From contig QKHS01000081.1 of assembly GCA_003249955.1 (NCBI GenBank), forward strand, positions 1 through 64,000: a stretch of DNA of 64,000 nucleotides. Direction: 5' to 3'. Positions within the stretch are counted from its first letter, which is position 1. The number at the start of each line of letters is the position of its first letter. A model generated the notes under the pieces. It was not told the origin of the DNA. It ran no database searches and saw nothing but the letters and a program-made list of their open reading frames with translations. A program made the position numbers and the translations under genes. This DNA is from Bacteroidales bacterium. GTDB lineage: Bacteria > Bacteroidota > Bacteroidia > Bacteroidales > ML635J-15. Below are positions 3,218 to 27,028 of this stretch, piece after piece.

Positions 3218-4597
3218 ATGGATAATCAGAACAGAACAATTTGTGCAATTTCTACTCCTGCAGGAGTGGGAGCAATTTCTATAATAAGATTGAGCGGAGA
3301 GAACTCACACAAAATTGTTTACAACATATCGGGTAATTCTGAAAAACTTAAAAATGCCGAAGCCGGAAAAATGATCTTTTGCCGTATTTTTAATAAAGAG
3401 AATGAAATACTTGACGAAGCTTTAATTGTTAAATTTCACAATCCTCATTCATTTACAGGCGAAGATATGGCAGAAATATACTGCCACGGCTCTCAGTTTA
3501 TTCAAAACGAAATAATTAATTTACTGACAGAAAACGGAGCTTCGATAGCGCAACCAGGCGAATTTACAAAACGTGCCTTCTTCAACGGAAAAATGGATTT
3601 ATCTCAGTCAGAGGCTGTTGCAGATGTTATTTCAAGTAACAGTTCCGAATCACACAGAATTGCAATACGTCAGATGAAGGGGAATATATCGTCAGAAATA
3701 AACGCCCTTCGCGACAAAATGATTGAGTTGACAGCATTAATGGAACTGGAACTGGACTTTGGTGAGGAAGATGTTGAATTCGCAGACAGAAGCAGTATTC
3801 TTGGTTTGATTTACGAAATGCAGAGCCGGATTAAATCTCTTATAAATTCTTTCCGGTTCGGGAATGCAATAAAATCAGGCGTTCCGGTCGTAATAGCAGG
3901 AGAACCAAATACCGGAAAGTCAACTTTATTAAATGCACTGCTTAAAGAAGAAAGAGCTATTGTTTCTGCTATACCCGGAACCACACGCGATACAATTGAA
4001 GAAGAACTTATTCTGGATGGCATTAAATTCAGAATTATTGACACCGCAGGAATAAGAAATTCATCGGATGAAATAGAAGAAATAGGCATAAAACGAAGCT
4101 TTGAAAAAATAGATAAAGCTCAACTTGTACTTTTGATGATTGACATTAATGAGCCTGAGATACAATCTGTTAACATAATTAACGACATCAAATCAAAACT
4201 TCGTGAAGACCAGAGTTTGATAATAGTGTTGAATAAAACCGATCTTCTTAAAAATCAGTCGCAAATCAAAATCCATGAGAATGAAAACACTGTTGCTATC
4301 TCTGCAGGAAGCGGAAAAAATATTGATTTGTTATGCGAAAAAATGACAGATTATGTAAAGTCGCTTAAAACAGGGGCAGACGACGTGATTATAAGCAGTG
4401 CCAGACATGTTGAGTCTTTAAAGGCAACATCTTCATCTCTGGAAAGAGCTGTGGCTGCACTTAATGAAAACCTCAGCGGCGATTTTGTTTCACAGGATTT
4501 ACGTGAAGCCATGTATTTTCTTGGCGAAATAACAGGCCAGGTAAGCAATGAAGAAGTTCTGGGAGCAATATTTTCTAAGTTTTGCATCGGGAAGTAG
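3218..4597 (+). CDS. mnmE: tRNA uridine-5-carboxymethylaminomethyl modification GTPase MnmE
   Basis: MnmE (TrmE, ThdF) works with MnmG to modify U34 at the wobble position of certain tRNAs. The 459-residue product has the family layout: an N-terminal tetrahydrofolate-binding-type domain (about 1-120), a helical domain, and an inserted GTPase domain with GEPNTGKS (228-235), the DTAG switch (275-278) and an NKTD guanine-specificity motif. It ends in the invariant FCIGK, whose Cys is catalytic in the family. The frame is open further upstream, but ATG 3218 matches the family N-terminus and follows a TAnnTTTG element. The last codons form one of two 17-bp direct repeats (4580-4596 and 6210-6226), the kind of site used by integrative elements at the trmE 3' end. 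The gene itself is intact. Confidence 0.97.
   Translation: MDNQNRTICAISTPAGVGAISIIRLSGENSHKIVYNISGNSEKLKNAEAGKMIFCRIFNKENEILDEALIVKFHNPHSFTGEDMAEIYCHGSQFIQNEIINLLTENGASIAQPGEFTKRAFFNGKMDLSQSEAVADVISSNSSESHRIAIRQMKGNISSEINALRDKMIELTALMELELDFGEEDVEFADRSSILGLIYEMQSRIKSLINSFRFGNAIKSGVPVVIAGEPNTGKSTLLNALLKEERAIVSAIPGTTRDTIEEELILDGIKFRIIDTAGIRNSSDEIEEIGIKRSFEKIDKAQLVLLMIDINEPEIQSVNIINDIKSKLREDQSLIIVLNKTDLLKNQSQIKIHENENTVAISAGSGKNIDLLCEKMTDYVKSLKTGADDVIISSARHVESLKATSSSLERAVAALNENLSGDFVSQDLREAMYFLGEITGQVSNEEVLGAIFSKFCIGK
4580..4596 (+). repeat. attL-like direct repeat within the mnmE 3' end
   Basis: The 17 bases ttttgcatcgggaagta encode the FCIGK end of MnmE and recur exactly at 6210-6226. The repeat corresponds in position and reading to the 18-bp attB at the end of trmE used by Salmonella Genomic Island 1. 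Calling it attL is inference. Confidence 0.6.
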
Positions 4598-4627
4598 TTT
4601 GGCTAATCCCTTCATTTGCAACACTTT

Positions 4628-4723
4628 ATGAGTACCAGCACTTCGGTTCAAAAAATCTGCGAAGATTTCTTCAACGCGATGGTGGCTCTTTATAGTTGTG
4701 AAGGAGCTGTAGTATTAAATTAG
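4628..4723 (+). pseudogene. Decayed C-terminal fragment, paralogue of the 5005-6021 protein
   Basis: A short open frame from ATG 4628 to TAG 4721 (31 residues) contains KICEDFFNAMVALYSCEGA followed by VVLN. This aligns residue for residue with the last part of the intact downstream protein (KIYEDFYYAMVALYSCVGA then EVLD). The upstream part of this copy is gone: mnmE ends only 30 bases before it. It is best read as the tail of a deleted paralogue, not a functional peptide. Confidence 0.7.
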
Positions 4724-4780
4724 TTTGTTGCACCCAATTGGGTTTATTGCTTCGTAATTATAGTTCTAATTAGTTTCCTC

Positions 4781-4828
4781 ATTCGCAAAAATCCCCGCCT
4801 TTCACTTTAAATGAAACGTTCAAGGTTT
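4781..4828 (+). repeat. 48-bp block after the gene fragment (copy A)
   Basis: The block running from attcgcaaaaatcccc to cgttcaaggttt matches 6079-6126 at 44 of 48 bases, with no gaps. Each copy sits 55-60 bases after the stop codon of a copy of the same gene family, so gene tail plus block form a repeated unit. The intervening 3' sequence is much less conserved, which suggests the block itself is kept or was recently copied. No T-tract terminator is present. The remaining bases up to 4971 hold nothing recognisable. Confidence 0.75.
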
Positions 4829-4971
4829 TACCCAACTCTTATAGATTTTCAACGACTCTATCATTTCTAAAATACTATTACTTGGCTTGAACCTTATCCA
4901 TTATCAAATTTAGATACTTTATCATCGATTTAATTTCTTCTATTTTTCATTAAATTTATCTTTTTTTAATT

Positions 4972-4979
4972 TAATTTTG
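4972..4979 (+). promoter_or_regulatory. TAnnTTTG promoter -7 element
   Basis: TAATTTTG lies 25 bases before the ATG at 5005 and matches the consensus exactly. The surrounding DNA is very AT-rich, so chance matches are possible. Confidence 0.45.
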
Positions 4980-5004
4980 TAAATCATTTTTAAATCATCG
5001 AACA

Positions 5005-6021
5005 ATGAAATTTTTATTCTCACTATTCGTTTTTTTATTTCTAAGCACATCATTTTTTGCTCAATATGATGAGTCGTTTTCACAAATCTCAATGCTATAC
5101 TCTGACTTTTCAGTTCAATCAAAACAATTCCTCGACAATAAATATATTGATAAAAATGAAGCGAAAAAGCTTAATAAAATATTAGTATCAATAAATTCAG
5201 CTGAAGCCAAATTTTTCAATCCTAAAAATGGTTTGACCGATGAAAACAAAGCAATTCTTGTGTACTTAGATTCCAAACAAAATGAAATAGATAGCATTGC
5301 AAGTTGTTTTCATAAAACAATAATTGACTTAACAATATGCGATAAAGCATCAAATATCAATATCCCTATAATTATGCATTTAGATTTTTTAAAACAAGAA
5401 GCATATGGTTTTGATCTTATTGATAAATACAGCAATTTAATTAAAACACTTAGTGCCGTTATGCAGGATAAAATAATTACCGATACTGAAATGATAGAGG
5501 TAATCAGTTTGATCGATAAAATCAATAATGTTAAAACATCTATGCGTGATAACTTTTCAGATAAAAATTTAAATTTTAAATTATTTGAATTTTTCGATTC
5601 TCAAGTCGTTTTAATTGATTCTCTAACGTTTCAGCTATGTGATTTATCTTTTACCTACAATTATATTTTGTCTATTTCTGAAAACAAAATCCCCAATGAC
5701 TTTTATTTCAATTACAGATATCCAGTGTATGATGCCGGTAAAATGATGATAATGGTTGAAAATTACACAGAATTAGCAAAAAAAGTTTCTGAAGACAATA
5801 AACTCAGTGACAAAGAAATCGAAGATATTAAAATATTCGATAAAGAGTTAACAGATTTTGAGAATGAAATGGATGAAAAGTACAAGAATGATAAAGAAGG
5901 TTATGCAAGAGTTAACAAGTATTTTGAAGACAACAAAACTGAAACAGATAAAATTTATGAAGATTTCTACTACGCTATGGTTGCTCTTTATAGTTGTGTA
6001 GGTGCTGAAGTATTAGATTAG
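5005..6021 (+). CDS. Secreted protein of unknown function inside the mnmE-end element
   Basis: This 338-residue protein starts with a clear signal peptide (MKFLFSLFVFLFLSTSFFA) and should be cleaved before Gln (FFA|QYDE). The rest is mostly helical in character and rich in Lys, Asp, Glu and Asn, with three similar Asp/Lys-rich helical stretches: YIDKNEAKKLNKI, IITDTEMIEVISLIDKI and KLSDKEIEDIKIFDKEL. These may be internal repeats. It ends in a distinctive Ala/Tyr/Cys segment, YAMVALYSCVGAEVLD. I do not recognise the family. Codons are markedly more AT-rich than in mnmE or the PrkA operon, and the gene lies between the direct repeats with a decayed paralogue just upstream. Both facts point to recent acquisition. 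No toxin, immunity or enzyme motif was seen. Confidence 0.75.
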   Translation: MKFLFSLFVFLFLSTSFFAQYDESFSQISMLYSDFSVQSKQFLDNKYIDKNEAKKLNKILVSINSAEAKFFNPKNGLTDENKAILVYLDSKQNEIDSIASCFHKTIIDLTICDKASNINIPIIMHLDFLKQEAYGFDLIDKYSNLIKTLSAVMQDKIITDTEMIEVISLIDKINNVKTSMRDNFSDKNLNFKLFEFFDSQVVLIDSLTFQLCDLSFTYNYILSISENKIPNDFYFNYRYPVYDAGKMMIMVENYTELAKKVSEDNKLSDKEIEDIKIFDKELTDFENEMDEKYKNDKEGYARVNKYFEDNKTETDKIYEDFYYAMVALYSCVGAEVLD

Positions 6022-6078
6022 CAAATTGCACCTATTCTGTTTTTTTTATTTATAATTATTTTTCTAATTTTCACCCTT

Positions 6079-6126
6079 ATTCGCAAAAATCCCCACCTTT
6101 AACTTAAAATGAAGCGTTCAAGGTTT
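6079..6126 (+). repeat. 48-bp block after the 5005-6021 gene (copy B)
   Basis: Second copy of the block at 4781-4828, with four substitutions. The stretch 6127-6209 between this block and the right direct repeat contains a small imperfect inverted repeat (agaagg ... cccttct, around 6161-6187) and nothing else recognisable. Confidence 0.75.
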
Positions 6127-6209
6127 GCACGGTCTTTTTGTAAAATTTAGCCTGATGAATAGAAGGCTTACGCACGCCAGCCCTTCTGTTGTTTTACTTT
6201 TGTCACATT

Positions 6210-6226
6210 TTTTGCATCGGGAAGTA
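6210..6226 (+). repeat. attR-like direct repeat, second copy of the mnmE 3' end
   Basis: An exact copy of 4580-4596. Read in frame it again gives FCIGK followed by a stop (taa here, tag in mnmE), although no mnmE sequence precedes it. This is what site-specific integration at the 3' end of mnmE would leave. Confidence 0.6.
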
Positions 6227-6325
6227 AAGCTTAACCTTTTAATAATCTATATAACCCTTATCAGAACGGGAACGAAAAAATTTCATAAATTTTATCCGAC
6301 AGGAATTTTACAATTATTTTTTTTT

Positions 6326-6333
6326 TACTTTTG
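6326..6333 (+). promoter_or_regulatory. TAnnTTTG promoter -7 element
   Basis: TACTTTTG lies 17 bases before the TTG start at 6351 and matches the consensus exactly. It supports a start near 6351 rather than further downstream. Confidence 0.5.
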
Positions 6334-6350
6334 CAAAAAAGCCTGAGTAA

Positions 6351-7151
6351 TTGATTAATTATACCAAATATTACAACTCTGAATCTGCAGATTGGGTGAC
6401 TTTTATCCATGGAGCAGGAGGTAGTTCCACAATATGGTATAAGCAGATAAAATCGTTCACGAAAAAGTATAATGTATTGCTCATAGACCTCAGAGGACAT
6501 GGAAAATCAAACAAGTGTTCGGTTAAAGGCTTTAATCAGAAATACACTTTCAGTTTTATTGCAGATGATGTTCTGGAGGTTTTAAACCACGAAAACATTC
6601 AAAAATCACATTTTGCAGGCATCTCACTCGGCACAATAATTATAAGACAAATTGCGGAACAATATCCGGAGCGGGTTTCGTCAATGATTATGGGTGGTGC
6701 AATCATGAAATTTAACTTCCGGTCTCAAATACTTATGAAACTGGGTTTTCTGTTTAAATCTCTGGTTCCTTACTTATTGCTTTACAATTTTTTTGCATTC
6801 ATTATAATGCCTAAAAATAACCACAAACATTCCCGGAACCTGTTTATGCGGGAAGCAAAAAATGTTTACCGTACAGAGTTCCTTAAGTGGTATAAAATGA
6901 CTGCTGACATAAACCCTATACTCAGGCTTTTCAGAAGCATAGAATTACCTATACCCACTCTTTACATTATGGGCGAGGAAGACTACATGTTTCTGCCAGC
7001 TATTCAGCAACTTATGCAAAGACATGTTAACAACTCAAAGCTTATAGTTTTCCCGGCCTGCGGTCATGTTGTAAATGTTGACAAACCGGAGCTTTTCAAT
7101 AGAACCGCCTTTGAATTTATTGATGCGGTTTCTGCACAATCAGCCTTCTGA
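6351..7151 (+). CDS. Alpha/beta-hydrolase fold protein
   Basis: The 266-residue product is a serine hydrolase of the alpha/beta-hydrolase superfamily. It has the oxyanion motif HGAGG (20-24), the nucleophile elbow GISLG with Ser92, an acidic residue in GEED (Asp211) and the catalytic His239 in CGHVVNVDKP. A hydrophobic lid-like insertion spans about 125-155. Substrate cannot be predicted; esters or small lactones are typical. The start is TTG at 6351, directly after an in-frame stop. No ATG occurs in frame before residue 112, which would delete the catalytic Ser, so TTG is preferred. A TAnnTTTG element sits just upstream. The gene lies just right of the element at the mnmE end and was probably the original neighbour of mnmE. 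Confidence 0.88.
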   Translation: MINYTKYYNSESADWVTFIHGAGGSSTIWYKQIKSFTKKYNVLLIDLRGHGKSNKCSVKGFNQKYTFSFIADDVLEVLNHENIQKSHFAGISLGTIIIRQIAEQYPERVSSMIMGGAIMKFNFRSQILMKLGFLFKSLVPYLLLYNFFAFIIMPKNNHKHSRNLFMREAKNVYRTEFLKWYKMTADINPILRLFRSIELPIPTLYIMGEEDYMFLPAIQQLMQRHVNNSKLIVFPACGHVVNVDKPELFNRTAFEFIDAVSAQSAF

Positions 7152-7314: not shown

Positions 7315-9396
7315 ATGGCAAAAAAAATCATCGATCAGCAACTTAATCCTAAAAGCCTTGATGCTCACATTTTAAATGTGCTGACAGGCCAGCGAAGATT
7401 CGAAAATGTCTTTCAGTCGGTATCACGTATGATTCTTGGTGAAAAAGACAGTATCGAAAAAGTTAACGTAAACGGACGCAGTACTTACGATTTTAAGATT
7501 TTCCGTGAAGGGAAGAAGCACATCATAGGAATGTTTGACGAAATAAACAGTTTCGTTTCTTATGTTAAAGATGCTGCCGAAAACGGATCGTCAAAAGAAA
7601 TGGCTTTTGTGCTTATCGGCGAACCAGGAAACGGGAAGACTTTCTTTGTTGACCATCTGAGCGAATTATACCGCAATTTCATCTCGAAACCGGAAAACAG
7701 ACGTTATACCTTCAGATTTAAAAATCTTGACAAAATAGGCGGTTATGGCAAGATTACGGCTATAGAATCACAGACATACGAAGACCCGATGATTCTGGCA
7801 ATGAATCTTTTCGAGGAAAAAGCAGAAAATATTGCAAATCTTAAAGCACTGGGATTCTCCGATGCAAAAATTACAGAAATATACAGCAGATACCGTCCTC
7901 TGGGTTCGTGCACTTATTACATACTGAACCAGATTAAGGAATATTGCAATGATGATATTGCAAAGCTTAAAGAATTTATTGAAATAGTGCCTGTTCCGGT
8001 TAACGAGTCAAGAGGAACAATCACCGGGAAATATGCTGCTAAAGACAAAATAACATCTTCCGCAACAGACCTTATTGGCGAAGAGTCTATTACAAGACTG
8101 CTGCATATATCTGATACAGACAATCCTTACAGATTTGACCTGCGTCGCGGAGCTCTTGCAAGAGTTGCAGGAGGTGGAATACATTTCGCAGATGAGATTT
8201 TTAAAAACAAAAAGGATCTTGTACAGGTCTATCTGGGAGTAATTCAAAACCGTACAATAGAAATGGAAGGCTACAAATGGCCTCTGGACACCTTGATTAT
8301 CGCAACCAGCAACAACTCTGAGTTTGCACGCTTTCTCGAAGAAAAAGAACAGGCTCCGATTATAGACCGTTGCCGCCTTACATATATGTCACACAATACA
8401 AATTACAAGCTGCAGCAGGAACTCACAGGCTATGCGGTAGGAAGCTATAATAAAACAACTTTTACTGACGAAAAACTGCATATTGACCCGAATCTTAATT
8501 ATGCAATTTCTGTTTCATTTGTACTGTCGAGAATGCCTAACAGCGACAAGCTAAGTCCTGTGGAAATGATGAAACTGGCAGCAGGCGATATTGCCGGGGA
8601 AAAGAGTATAAAAACACTGGGAGAGGTGATAAGTGAACTGAATACAGACCCAGACGTAACAAAACGATTCGGGCAAAAAGGATTGGGACACAGAAACTTA
8701 GGACGGTCAATTCAGGTATTGCTTGAACAAAGCACAACCCAGGAAGGCAAATGTATGTATGCCGGAGACGTGTTCAAATCAATAGAAACAGTTATTCTGG
8801 ATTACGTCCATGAACCCAATGACAGAATCAAATACTTTAACGATATTAAAATTGCACGGGAATTATACCGTAAAAACGTAATGACAACCATTTTTAACGC
8901 TTACATGGATGAACCCAATGCCATAGAAAAAGATGTGCTTAATTACGTTAATATGATTATCGGGATAGATGCAAAAAATCTTGGCGCTGATAAAATTTGG
9001 ACTTATCGCGATCCGCAATCCGGCAAACTGGTTCCGCTTAAAATTGATGAAACCTTTGTAAACAGCGTCGAAGAACGGTTGGGACTGAAAAACAACGAGC
9101 AAAAACAAAGTTTCAGGACTACAATTGCAAAAATTTACGGACAAAAAATGAATAATGATCCGTCATACAATTTCATGGATAACAACGAACTGGTAAAAGC
9201 TGTAACAGATGTGCGCCTTAAATCAGATATTTCAGGCACAGGAAGCCTTATAGGTGCTTTATCAAACAGAACCAACGAAGAAAATATGAAACTGTATAAC
9301 AGGATGATAAACACAATGATTAAAAAACTCGGCTATTGTGAAACATGTGCTCAGAAAACCATAGAATATTTCTGTACGCACGATGACAGTAACTAA
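7315..9396 (+). CDS. PrkA-family AAA+ serine protein kinase (PrkA1)
   Basis: This 693-residue protein belongs to the PrkA/YeaG family: AAA+ ATPase core plus a PrkA C-terminal region. In Bacillus and E. coli these proteins act in starvation or stress responses. Kinase activity has been reported, but the exact biochemistry is debated. Walker A is GEPGNGKT (102-109) and Walker B is IHFADE (289-294), followed by the family-typical segment about removing and rebuilding an inhibitory loop (IIATSNNSEF). It opens a four-gene same-strand set with YeaH, SpoVR and a second PrkA-like protein. The gap to the next gene is 75 bases and contains a small hairpin (CTACCTG 9400-9406 with CAGGTAG 9419-9425, no T-tract). 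The ATG at 7315 is close to the family N-terminus. No consensus promoter stands out upstream. Confidence 0.92.
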   Translation: MAKKIIDQQLNPKSLDAHILNVLTGQRRFENVFQSVSRMILGEKDSIEKVNVNGRSTYDFKIFREGKKHIIGMFDEINSFVSYVKDAAENGSSKEMAFVLIGEPGNGKTFFVDHLSELYRNFISKPENRRYTFRFKNLDKIGGYGKITAIESQTYEDPMILAMNLFEEKAENIANLKALGFSDAKITEIYSRYRPLGSCTYYILNQIKEYCNDDIAKLKEFIEIVPVPVNESRGTITGKYAAKDKITSSATDLIGEESITRLLHISDTDNPYRFDLRRGALARVAGGGIHFADEIFKNKKDLVQVYLGVIQNRTIEMEGYKWPLDTLIIATSNNSEFARFLEEKEQAPIIDRCRLTYMSHNTNYKLQQELTGYAVGSYNKTTFTDEKLHIDPNLNYAISVSFVLSRMPNSDKLSPVEMMKLAAGDIAGEKSIKTLGEVISELNTDPDVTKRFGQKGLGHRNLGRSIQVLLEQSTTQEGKCMYAGDVFKSIETVILDYVHEPNDRIKYFNDIKIARELYRKNVMTTIFNAYMDEPNAIEKDVLNYVNMIIGIDAKNLGADKIWTYRDPQSGKLVPLKIDETFVNSVEERLGLKNNEQKQSFRTTIAKIYGQKMNNDPSYNFMDNNELVKAVTDVRLKSDISGTGSLIGALSNRTNEENMKLYNRMINTMIKKLGYCETCAQKTIEYFCTHDDSN

Positions 9397-26963: not shown

Positions 26964-27028
26964 TTAGTTTTTCATAATAGTGGTTTTAAGAGTCTGAATC
27001 AGAAATGGTTCAGGCTCTTTTTTTTAAT
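26964..27028 (+). repeat. dnaK 3' repeat, copy 1 (contains the terminator)
   Basis: These 65 bases from the dnaK stop onward recur at 27888-27952 with four small differences (two substitutions and two one-base indels). Between the copies lies about 0.86 kb with a foldback element and no intact gene. The copies may mark a duplication or an insertion at the dnaK terminator. Confidence 0.8.
26990..27025 (+). terminator. dnaK terminator
   Basis: GAGTCTGAA (26990-26998) pairs with TTCAGGCTC (27009-27017) with one G-T pair, followed by eight T residues. Confidence 0.85.

Follow-up and report, generated by a model that had tools for sequence, protein, structure and literature searches.

The analysed stretch of DNA (hereafter the window) comprises the first 64,000 nucleotides of contig QKHS01000081.1 from a Bacteroidales bacterium (assembly GCA_003249955.1, genome G000 in our set), and it carries an intact mnmE gene, encoding a tRNA modification GTPase, that is followed by a 1.6-kb element and then by chromosomal genes. 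The element lies between two copies of a 17-bp sequence, TTTTGCATCGGGAAGTA, the left copy of which forms the last five codons of mnmE (FCIGK) and the first two bases of its stop codon. An exact repeat at 4580–4596 and 6210–6226 had been claimed in a preliminary description of the window, and it was confirmed by our searches: no other copy was observed in the window at up to three mismatches, and the whole genome (4.70 Mb in 101 contigs, searched at up to two mismatches) contained no further exact copy. By a first-order Markov estimate, 6.8e-6 exact matches were expected on the plus strand of the window. The preliminary description had also considered that mnmE sequence upstream of the 17 bp might have been copied along; however, the 19-mer beginning two bases further upstream already showed two mismatches. 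Identity thus ends at the left edge of the 17 bp, which indicates a core repeat and not a longer copied stretch of mnmE.

The GC content between the two cores was 28.8%, compared with 36.2% for the window, and that of the single intact gene (cargo gene B) was 27.1%, so that the AT-richness of the element belongs to the cargo gene. Of the earlier statement that AT-rich genes without an integrase lie here, the second half stood, as neither the open reading frame (ORF) list nor Pfam gave an integrase between the cores, or any integration or transfer gene between attL and attR; the plural did not, since the segment holds only one intact gene and one stub of 31 codons (table 1). The stub is an in-frame fusion, translated as MSTSTSVQKICE-DFFNAMVALYSCEGAVVLN, of the start of an excisionase-like helix-turn-helix (HTH) gene with the end of a second cargo gene (gene A), and its tail matched the C-terminus of the 338-aa cargo B protein at 4.9e-4. 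In addition, the segment contains an internal 177-nt duplication that had been absent from the preliminary description.

Table 1. Features of the mnmE locus in the window.
Feature	Position	Strand	Basis
mnmE (tRNA modification GTPase), intact; 3' end is the integration site	3239..4597	+	Pfam MnmE_helical 1.6e-51, TrmE_N 9.9e-38
Left 17-bp core repeat (attL core), FCIGK and two stop bases	4580..4596	+	Exact repeat search
23 bp identical to the left end of the G018 island	4605..4627	+	Local score 47
First 12 codons of the island excisionase-like HTH gene (window MSTSTSVQKICE, G018 MSTNISVQKICE)	4628..4663	+	G018 alignment
In-frame fusion stub: excisionase-like start and last 19 codons of cargo gene A	4628..4723	+	Translation
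Cargo gene A 3' end and start of backbone boundary	4652..4828	+	79% identical to 5950–6126
Cargo gene B, 338 aa, intact, signal-peptide-like start (by eye)	5005..6021	+	ORF
Start of island right-hand backbone	6041..6217	+	85% over 178 bp to G018:C33
13 bp ACATTTTTTGCAT, likely deletion junction	6205..6217	+	Occurs twice in G018, within the backbone and at attR
Right 17-bp core repeat (attR core)	6210..6226	+	Exact repeat search
Chromosomal alpha/beta hydrolase gene after the right core	6351..7151	+	Pfam Abhydrolase_1 4.9e-30
Chromosomal 693-aa gene, next after the hydrolase gene	7315..9396	+	ORF; same order after attR in G018

A complete island was observed at the same site in the close relative G018, whose MnmE is 68% identical to that of the window. 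In this genome, mnmE on contig C512 terminates in the core TTTTGCATCGGAAAGTA, and contig C33 carries an identical copy with the hydrolase and 693-aa genes known from the window behind it. The two contigs share 141 identical bases at their ends; the island is thus contiguous and measures 38,915 bp between identical 17-bp cores. An excisionase-like gene (NCBIfam 'excise', 6.7e-12) was observed, and the integrase, located near the other end of C33, was 67% identical to that of a further relative, G036. The GC content of the island (32.6% vs 32.4% in its flank) showed that it is not more AT-rich than its surroundings. Among the 12 island proteins scanned in Pfam or PHROGs were the integrase, the excisionase-like protein, a BT4734/VapE-like primase, a type III restriction-like pair, and Piwi, SNF2 and DUF6266 proteins. 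The Piwi protein, the restriction-like genes and an AAA protein that matched an AbiEii-type Pfam family make the island (C33; L201, L202) look like a defence island.

Both ends of the window element resembled this island. On the left, 31 bp separate the core from the start codon of the excisionase-like stub, and they contain the 23 bp shared with G018, whose local score compares with 30 at the 99.9th percentile of random segments (the random pool held the window itself, so that the maximum of the control is a self-match). The 23 bp were exact in only two of 61 genomes (the window's own and 60 relatives), directly after mnmE in each, and one match with two mismatches was observed elsewhere in G000. 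The start of the excisionase-like gene followed with 38 of 43 bases identical to G018 (4621–4663). Spacing differed between the two genomes: the 23 bp lie 14 nt nearer to the mnmE stop and core in the window, and the excisionase-like start codon in G018 lies about 190 bp further from the core. The G018 DNA that is absent from the window between core and start codon holds GTTGCC repeats, which we took for putative arm-type sites; GTTGCC/GTTGCT-type repeats occur near both ends of several islands.

On the right, the sequence following cargo gene B matched G018 DNA that starts a backbone 4.8 kb inside attR, with a second match of 90% over 124 bp; about 140 bp of backbone are retained, and two partial copies of the backbone start are present in the window, one after gene A and one after gene B. 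Past the backbone start, G018 has about 1.4 kb devoid of long ORFs, followed by a 159-aa gene (weak DnaJ match, 3e-5, under the Pfam cut-off); this 1.4-kb stretch is partly conserved in G018, G036, G011 and others (L209, L211, L213 and related loci). The right end of the window itself read gtcACATTTTTTGCATcgggaagta, compared with gtcACATTTTTTGCATtgcc in the G018 backbone and aaACATTTTTTGCATcggaaagta at G018 attR, which is the outcome expected of a deletion between two copies of the 13-bp ACATTTTTTGCAT.

The DNA after mnmE was also compared at the best 30 matches, own genome included, some of whose contigs end early. In G008 (MnmE 64% identical to that of the window) a hydrolase homologue with 70% identity begins 49 bp past the mnmE stop, and in G001 (69%) mnmE and the hydrolase gene are separated by a 248-aa ORF; no second core was seen in the stretches fetched from either genome. 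G008 represents the unoccupied gene order, and to this extent the check for an empty site proposed in the preliminary description came out positive.

Taken together, these results make it very probable that the window element is what is left, after truncation on both sides, of a tyrosine-recombinase island integrated at the 3' end of mnmE. By sequence comparison, each piece of the element is homologous to the complete island at the same site in G018, and the unoccupied order is found in G008. As judged from G018, the island would have integrated site-specifically by means of its own tyrosine recombinase, leaving a 17-bp core on either side and mnmE intact, and would then have decayed in the lineage of the window. 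A first deletion, joining codon 12 of the excisionase-like gene to the tail of cargo gene A, may have removed the integrase and nearly everything else; a second may have removed about 5 kb of the right-hand backbone by recombination between the internal and the attR copies of ACATTTTTTGCAT; and a smaller loss near the left end would have taken the putative arm repeats. We infer this order of events and the deletion mechanism, as well as any activity of the islands, from the sequences. Both cores have survived, together with the 31 bp that precede the start codon, the excisionase-like stub of 12 codons, a single intact gene and some 140 bp of backbone. The window element shares with the mnmE islands the two-sided core repeat, the left end and the right-hand backbone, and lacks the excisionase-like gene followed by a tyrosine integrase soon after mnmE. 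The element is a remnant, one of the two options offered by the preliminary description, and not a working member, as only the first 12 excisionase-like codons remain and the integrase is gone; the leftover gene start and the backbone speak for the same option. Moreover, G000 contained no integrase of the island type at E<=1e-40, so that present mobility of the element is unlikely. In a variant of the second step, the internal ACATTTTTTGCATTG would be a pseudo-attachment site that was joined to attR by the integrase of the island and not by slippage. We consider this rather unlikely; if it were true, the islands would trim themselves site-specifically and strand the cargo nearest to the boundary, domesticated, at mnmE.

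Several observations weigh against this interpretation. The right core shares its first 8 bases with the island backbone, so that the right copy is partly explained without an attR. At least two large deletions, together with smaller losses, must be assumed, and each of these deletions may in part be an insertion in G018, since G018 is a cousin and not an ancestor. The unoccupied order is known from G008 and not from a strain of the same species, and the MnmE proteins of G018 and G008 are only 68% and 64% identical to that of the window. The left ends of the Aequorivita islands scored barely above chance against the window (24 and 20), and a control without an integrase also scored 20. Finally, related integrases were not at mnmE in 4 of the 12 genomes that had them in the 61-genome set, or in 4 of 18 in a sample of the phylum.

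We weighed three other explanations for the segment. Two islands might have inserted in tandem at mnmE and left parts of their junction, the backbone being the right end of the older one. The two partial backbone copies in the window would fit such a history, as would the two backbone starts in the single G018 island (4.8 and about 16 kb from attR) and the DNA beyond the second core of G068, which resembles an island left end by eye. However, the backbone start in G018 continues not into a core but into the 1.4 kb shared with other genomes, and no further core was observed on G018 contig C33 at one mismatch; we therefore regard the tandem history as improbable. Still less probable is the other option of the preliminary description, a small passenger that has an attL and an attR of its own and is mobilized in trans by a full island's integrase. 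Both cores are exact and the cargo gene is intact, but the element lacks the GTTGCC/GTTGCT-type putative arm repeats, it is truncated on either side, its left end is broken by the excisionase-like stub, the 23-bp left end recurs in just one other of the 61 genomes, and G000 lacks an integrase of the island type. Chance, or a local duplication of the mnmE end with no history of integration, has a negligible probability: the segment does contain an internal duplication (79%), but about 7e-6 exact matches are expected, and each end shows homology to parts of an island that occupies this site and carries an integrase.

The association between this integrase type and mnmE was not restricted to G018. 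In G036 and G037, two genomes of the order, mnmE is followed by genes for an excisionase-like HTH protein and a tyrosine integrase, and the integrases carry Phage_integrase, Phage_int_SAM_5 and Arm-DNA-bind_5 domains (Pfam). A contig scan with the G036 integrase returned 57 loci, in eight of which mnmE ends 586–653 bp before the integrase. These eight, one from an Acidobacteria metagenome-assembled genome (MAG), were among the nine loci with at least 48% identity (query locus L095 included), the ninth, L102, having only 93 bp of upstream DNA; the C-terminus of mnmE was found in none of the fetched DNA of the 48 loci with 43% identity or less. In the 61-genome set, 12 genomes matched the G036 integrase at E<=1e-40, query genome included, with mnmE in the flank of seven and, by the contig overlap, of G018 as an eighth. 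In the phylum sample, 18 of 395 genomes matched the G018 integrase at E<=1e-75, and the mnmE C-terminus lay within the 1.5-kb flank in 14; the four integrases without it all belong to family f49, a fifth genome of which, G112, does have the mnmE C-terminus there. The count of 14 among 395 is a lower bound, as at most five candidates were scored per genome under a strict cut-off. The preliminary description had supposed that a recombinase for the mnmE site exists in Bacteroidota and had proposed to look for larger islands there; the G018 island and the integrases at mnmE in these other Bacteroidota bear out both.

A quick tree of 57 integrases was built from 29 of the 57 contig-scan loci (27 were left out by choice, and L150 was dropped for a stop in frame), 11 of the 12 genomes of the 61-genome set and 17 of the 18 of the phylum sample; also omitted were L189, which repeats L095, and L235, which has stops. 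The mnmE label, carried by 28 rows, required 4 changes, compared with a mean of 19.2 after shuffling (none of 500 as low), which indicates strong clustering on the tree. The label does not form a single clade, as the starred branches force at least three changes, and several long branches are doubtfully placed. Loci L104–L148 are related integrases of Flavobacterium and its kin that are not beside mnmE, and those entered in the tree cluster together, L105 excepted.

Second cores were searched in 10 genomes with one mismatch allowed, and a second core closed the island in six of them: G018 (38.9 kb, on two contigs), G037 (7.7 kb), G062 (38.2 kb), G063 (38.4 kb, differing from the pattern at one base), G064 (43.0 kb, or 32.3 kb if measured to a one-mismatch copy) and G068 (11.7 kb, cores identical over 17 bp). 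As the DNA past the second core of G068 resembles a left end by eye, two islands may adjoin there in tandem. In G061, the genome with the G036 island, a zero-mismatch second core was present on another contig, and in G065, G066 and G067 no zero-mismatch core beyond that of mnmE itself was observed among the matches listed. Of 14 further genomes with an mnmE-adjacent integrase, five (G122, G125, G349, G350 and G384) had an exact second core at a distance of 5.8 to 66 kb on the same contig and strand; no such copy was present in the remaining nine, some of which had copies on other contigs. Among 13 genomes of the same genus without an mnmE-adjacent integrase, controls that are not family-matched, no second core was found. 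The Acidobacteria MAG 28-9 (L103/L185) carries an 11.7-kb mnmE island with identical 17-bp cores, and the DNA beyond its second core is similar to the left end, as would be expected of a tandem; the presence of the island in an Acidobacteriota record reflects either cross-phylum transfer or misbinning.

Other natures were considered for the island and its right end. No capsid or large terminase was observed among the 12 scanned proteins of G018, so a prophage was rejected, and a 'terminase small subunit' match of the excisionase-like protein (6.5e-5) was weak and disregarded. Against this rejection, integrases related to that of G018 occurred in phage-labelled records, 796 of which matched; among the ten matches listed, the best had 44.6% identity over 98% of the query, in an unannotated record from human faeces, and one record outside these ten fell in the 60–80% identity band. 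An integron-like cassette array, suggested by gene ends that carry backbone sequence, was rejected, as the 1.4 kb common to several genomes precedes the next gene. A structured RNA at the right end was likewise rejected, with folding z-scores of four backbone copies from -1.01 to +0.96 and no Rfam match for window 4400–6600 or for nine loci. The two boundary copies in G018 (L201, 16162–16289 and 4887–5062) enclose an 11-kb block whose genes are mostly reversed, as if cargo had been exchanged between backbone boundaries.

Cargo gene B presumably encodes an exported protein. The 338-aa product had no gathering-level match in Pfam and none in PHROGs or NCBIfam, and a single-sequence AlphaFold2 model was helical and not usable (mean predicted local distance difference test score, pLDDT, 38.9). 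When the protein was compared with itself as three repeats, pairs 1–3 and 2–3 scored above shuffled sequences (0 and 4 of 1000 as high) and pair 1–2 did not (253 of 1000). Matches at E<=0.001 were observed in 14 of the 61 genomes, own included, and the C-terminal third was 61% identical to a small lipoprotein-like family on contig C14 of G000, where three tandem genes (L028, 3838–5263) encode lipoprotein-like proteins of about 120 aa akin to cargo B. In several members of the genus, two or three cargo-B-like matches lie side by side.

Matches to mnmE were observed in 41 of 41 genomes, including that of the window. A second mnmE, with 46% identity, lies on a 17-kb contig of the window's genome (G000:C97:3423–4795, L265); its neighbouring gene, read by eye, looks to be of a PorP type that we take to be from Flavobacteriia, so this contig may be a contaminant. 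Four genus members (L031, L035, L036 and L037) have an ORF with the motif HNYCDRWCERC downstream of mnmE. Further exact repeats of at least 17 bp in the window were observed at 26972–27024/27896–27949, 16960/17193, 23668/38683 and 39571/40914.

We regard the window element itself as an ordinary remnant, and the Bacteroidota island group to which it belongs as newly noticed and fairly widespread. These results indicate that the 3' end of mnmE, the site of Salmonella genomic island 1 (SGI1), is also used by tyrosine-integrase islands across Bacteroidota, in at least 14 of 395 genomes, and in one Acidobacteria MAG. The gene is thus a candidate hotspot across phyla and might serve as an attB for Bacteroidota genetic tools. 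The window adds a worked example of island erosion, with gene stubs, a repeat-joined end and one cargo gene left. Full-text searches of the literature gave no report of mnmE-site islands in Bacteroidota; the tables of TIGER/Islander may contain such islands, and PMC12884075 cites PMC7192596 in connection with TIGER.

Among known systems, the islands that target dusA likewise use a conserved tRNA-modification gene, but their integrase lies at the 5' end of dusA (PMC4482086). The 10K genomic island of Riemerella anatipestifer is also from Bacteroidota and has a tyrosine integrase and flanking direct repeats, as described in PMC6764341, but its 53-bp repeat lies at an Arg-tRNA gene and not at mnmE. 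Cis-mobilizable elements (CIMEs), as defined in PMC5704250, have lost their integration genes and kept both core sites, as has the window element. In contrast to a CIME, however, the DNA beside the cores of the window element is eroded: the cores are exact, and the putative arm repeats and natural ends are gone. Its mobilisation is thus doubtful. A further parallel is the SGI1 family. The integration site of SGI1 is formed by the last 18 bp of thdF/mnmE (trmE), with direct repeats (PMC2297512), and SGI1 and MGIVchHai6 are listed in PMC5704250 with the mnmE 3' site in gammaproteobacteria. Whereas the mnmE-site elements listed there are gammaproteobacterial, the present islands come from Bacteroidota and one Acidobacteria MAG, and the Bacteroidota integrases tested match Phage_int_SAM_5 and Arm-DNA-bind_5. 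The likeness lies in the common site, the 3' end of mnmE, at which the window retains its 17-bp repeat.

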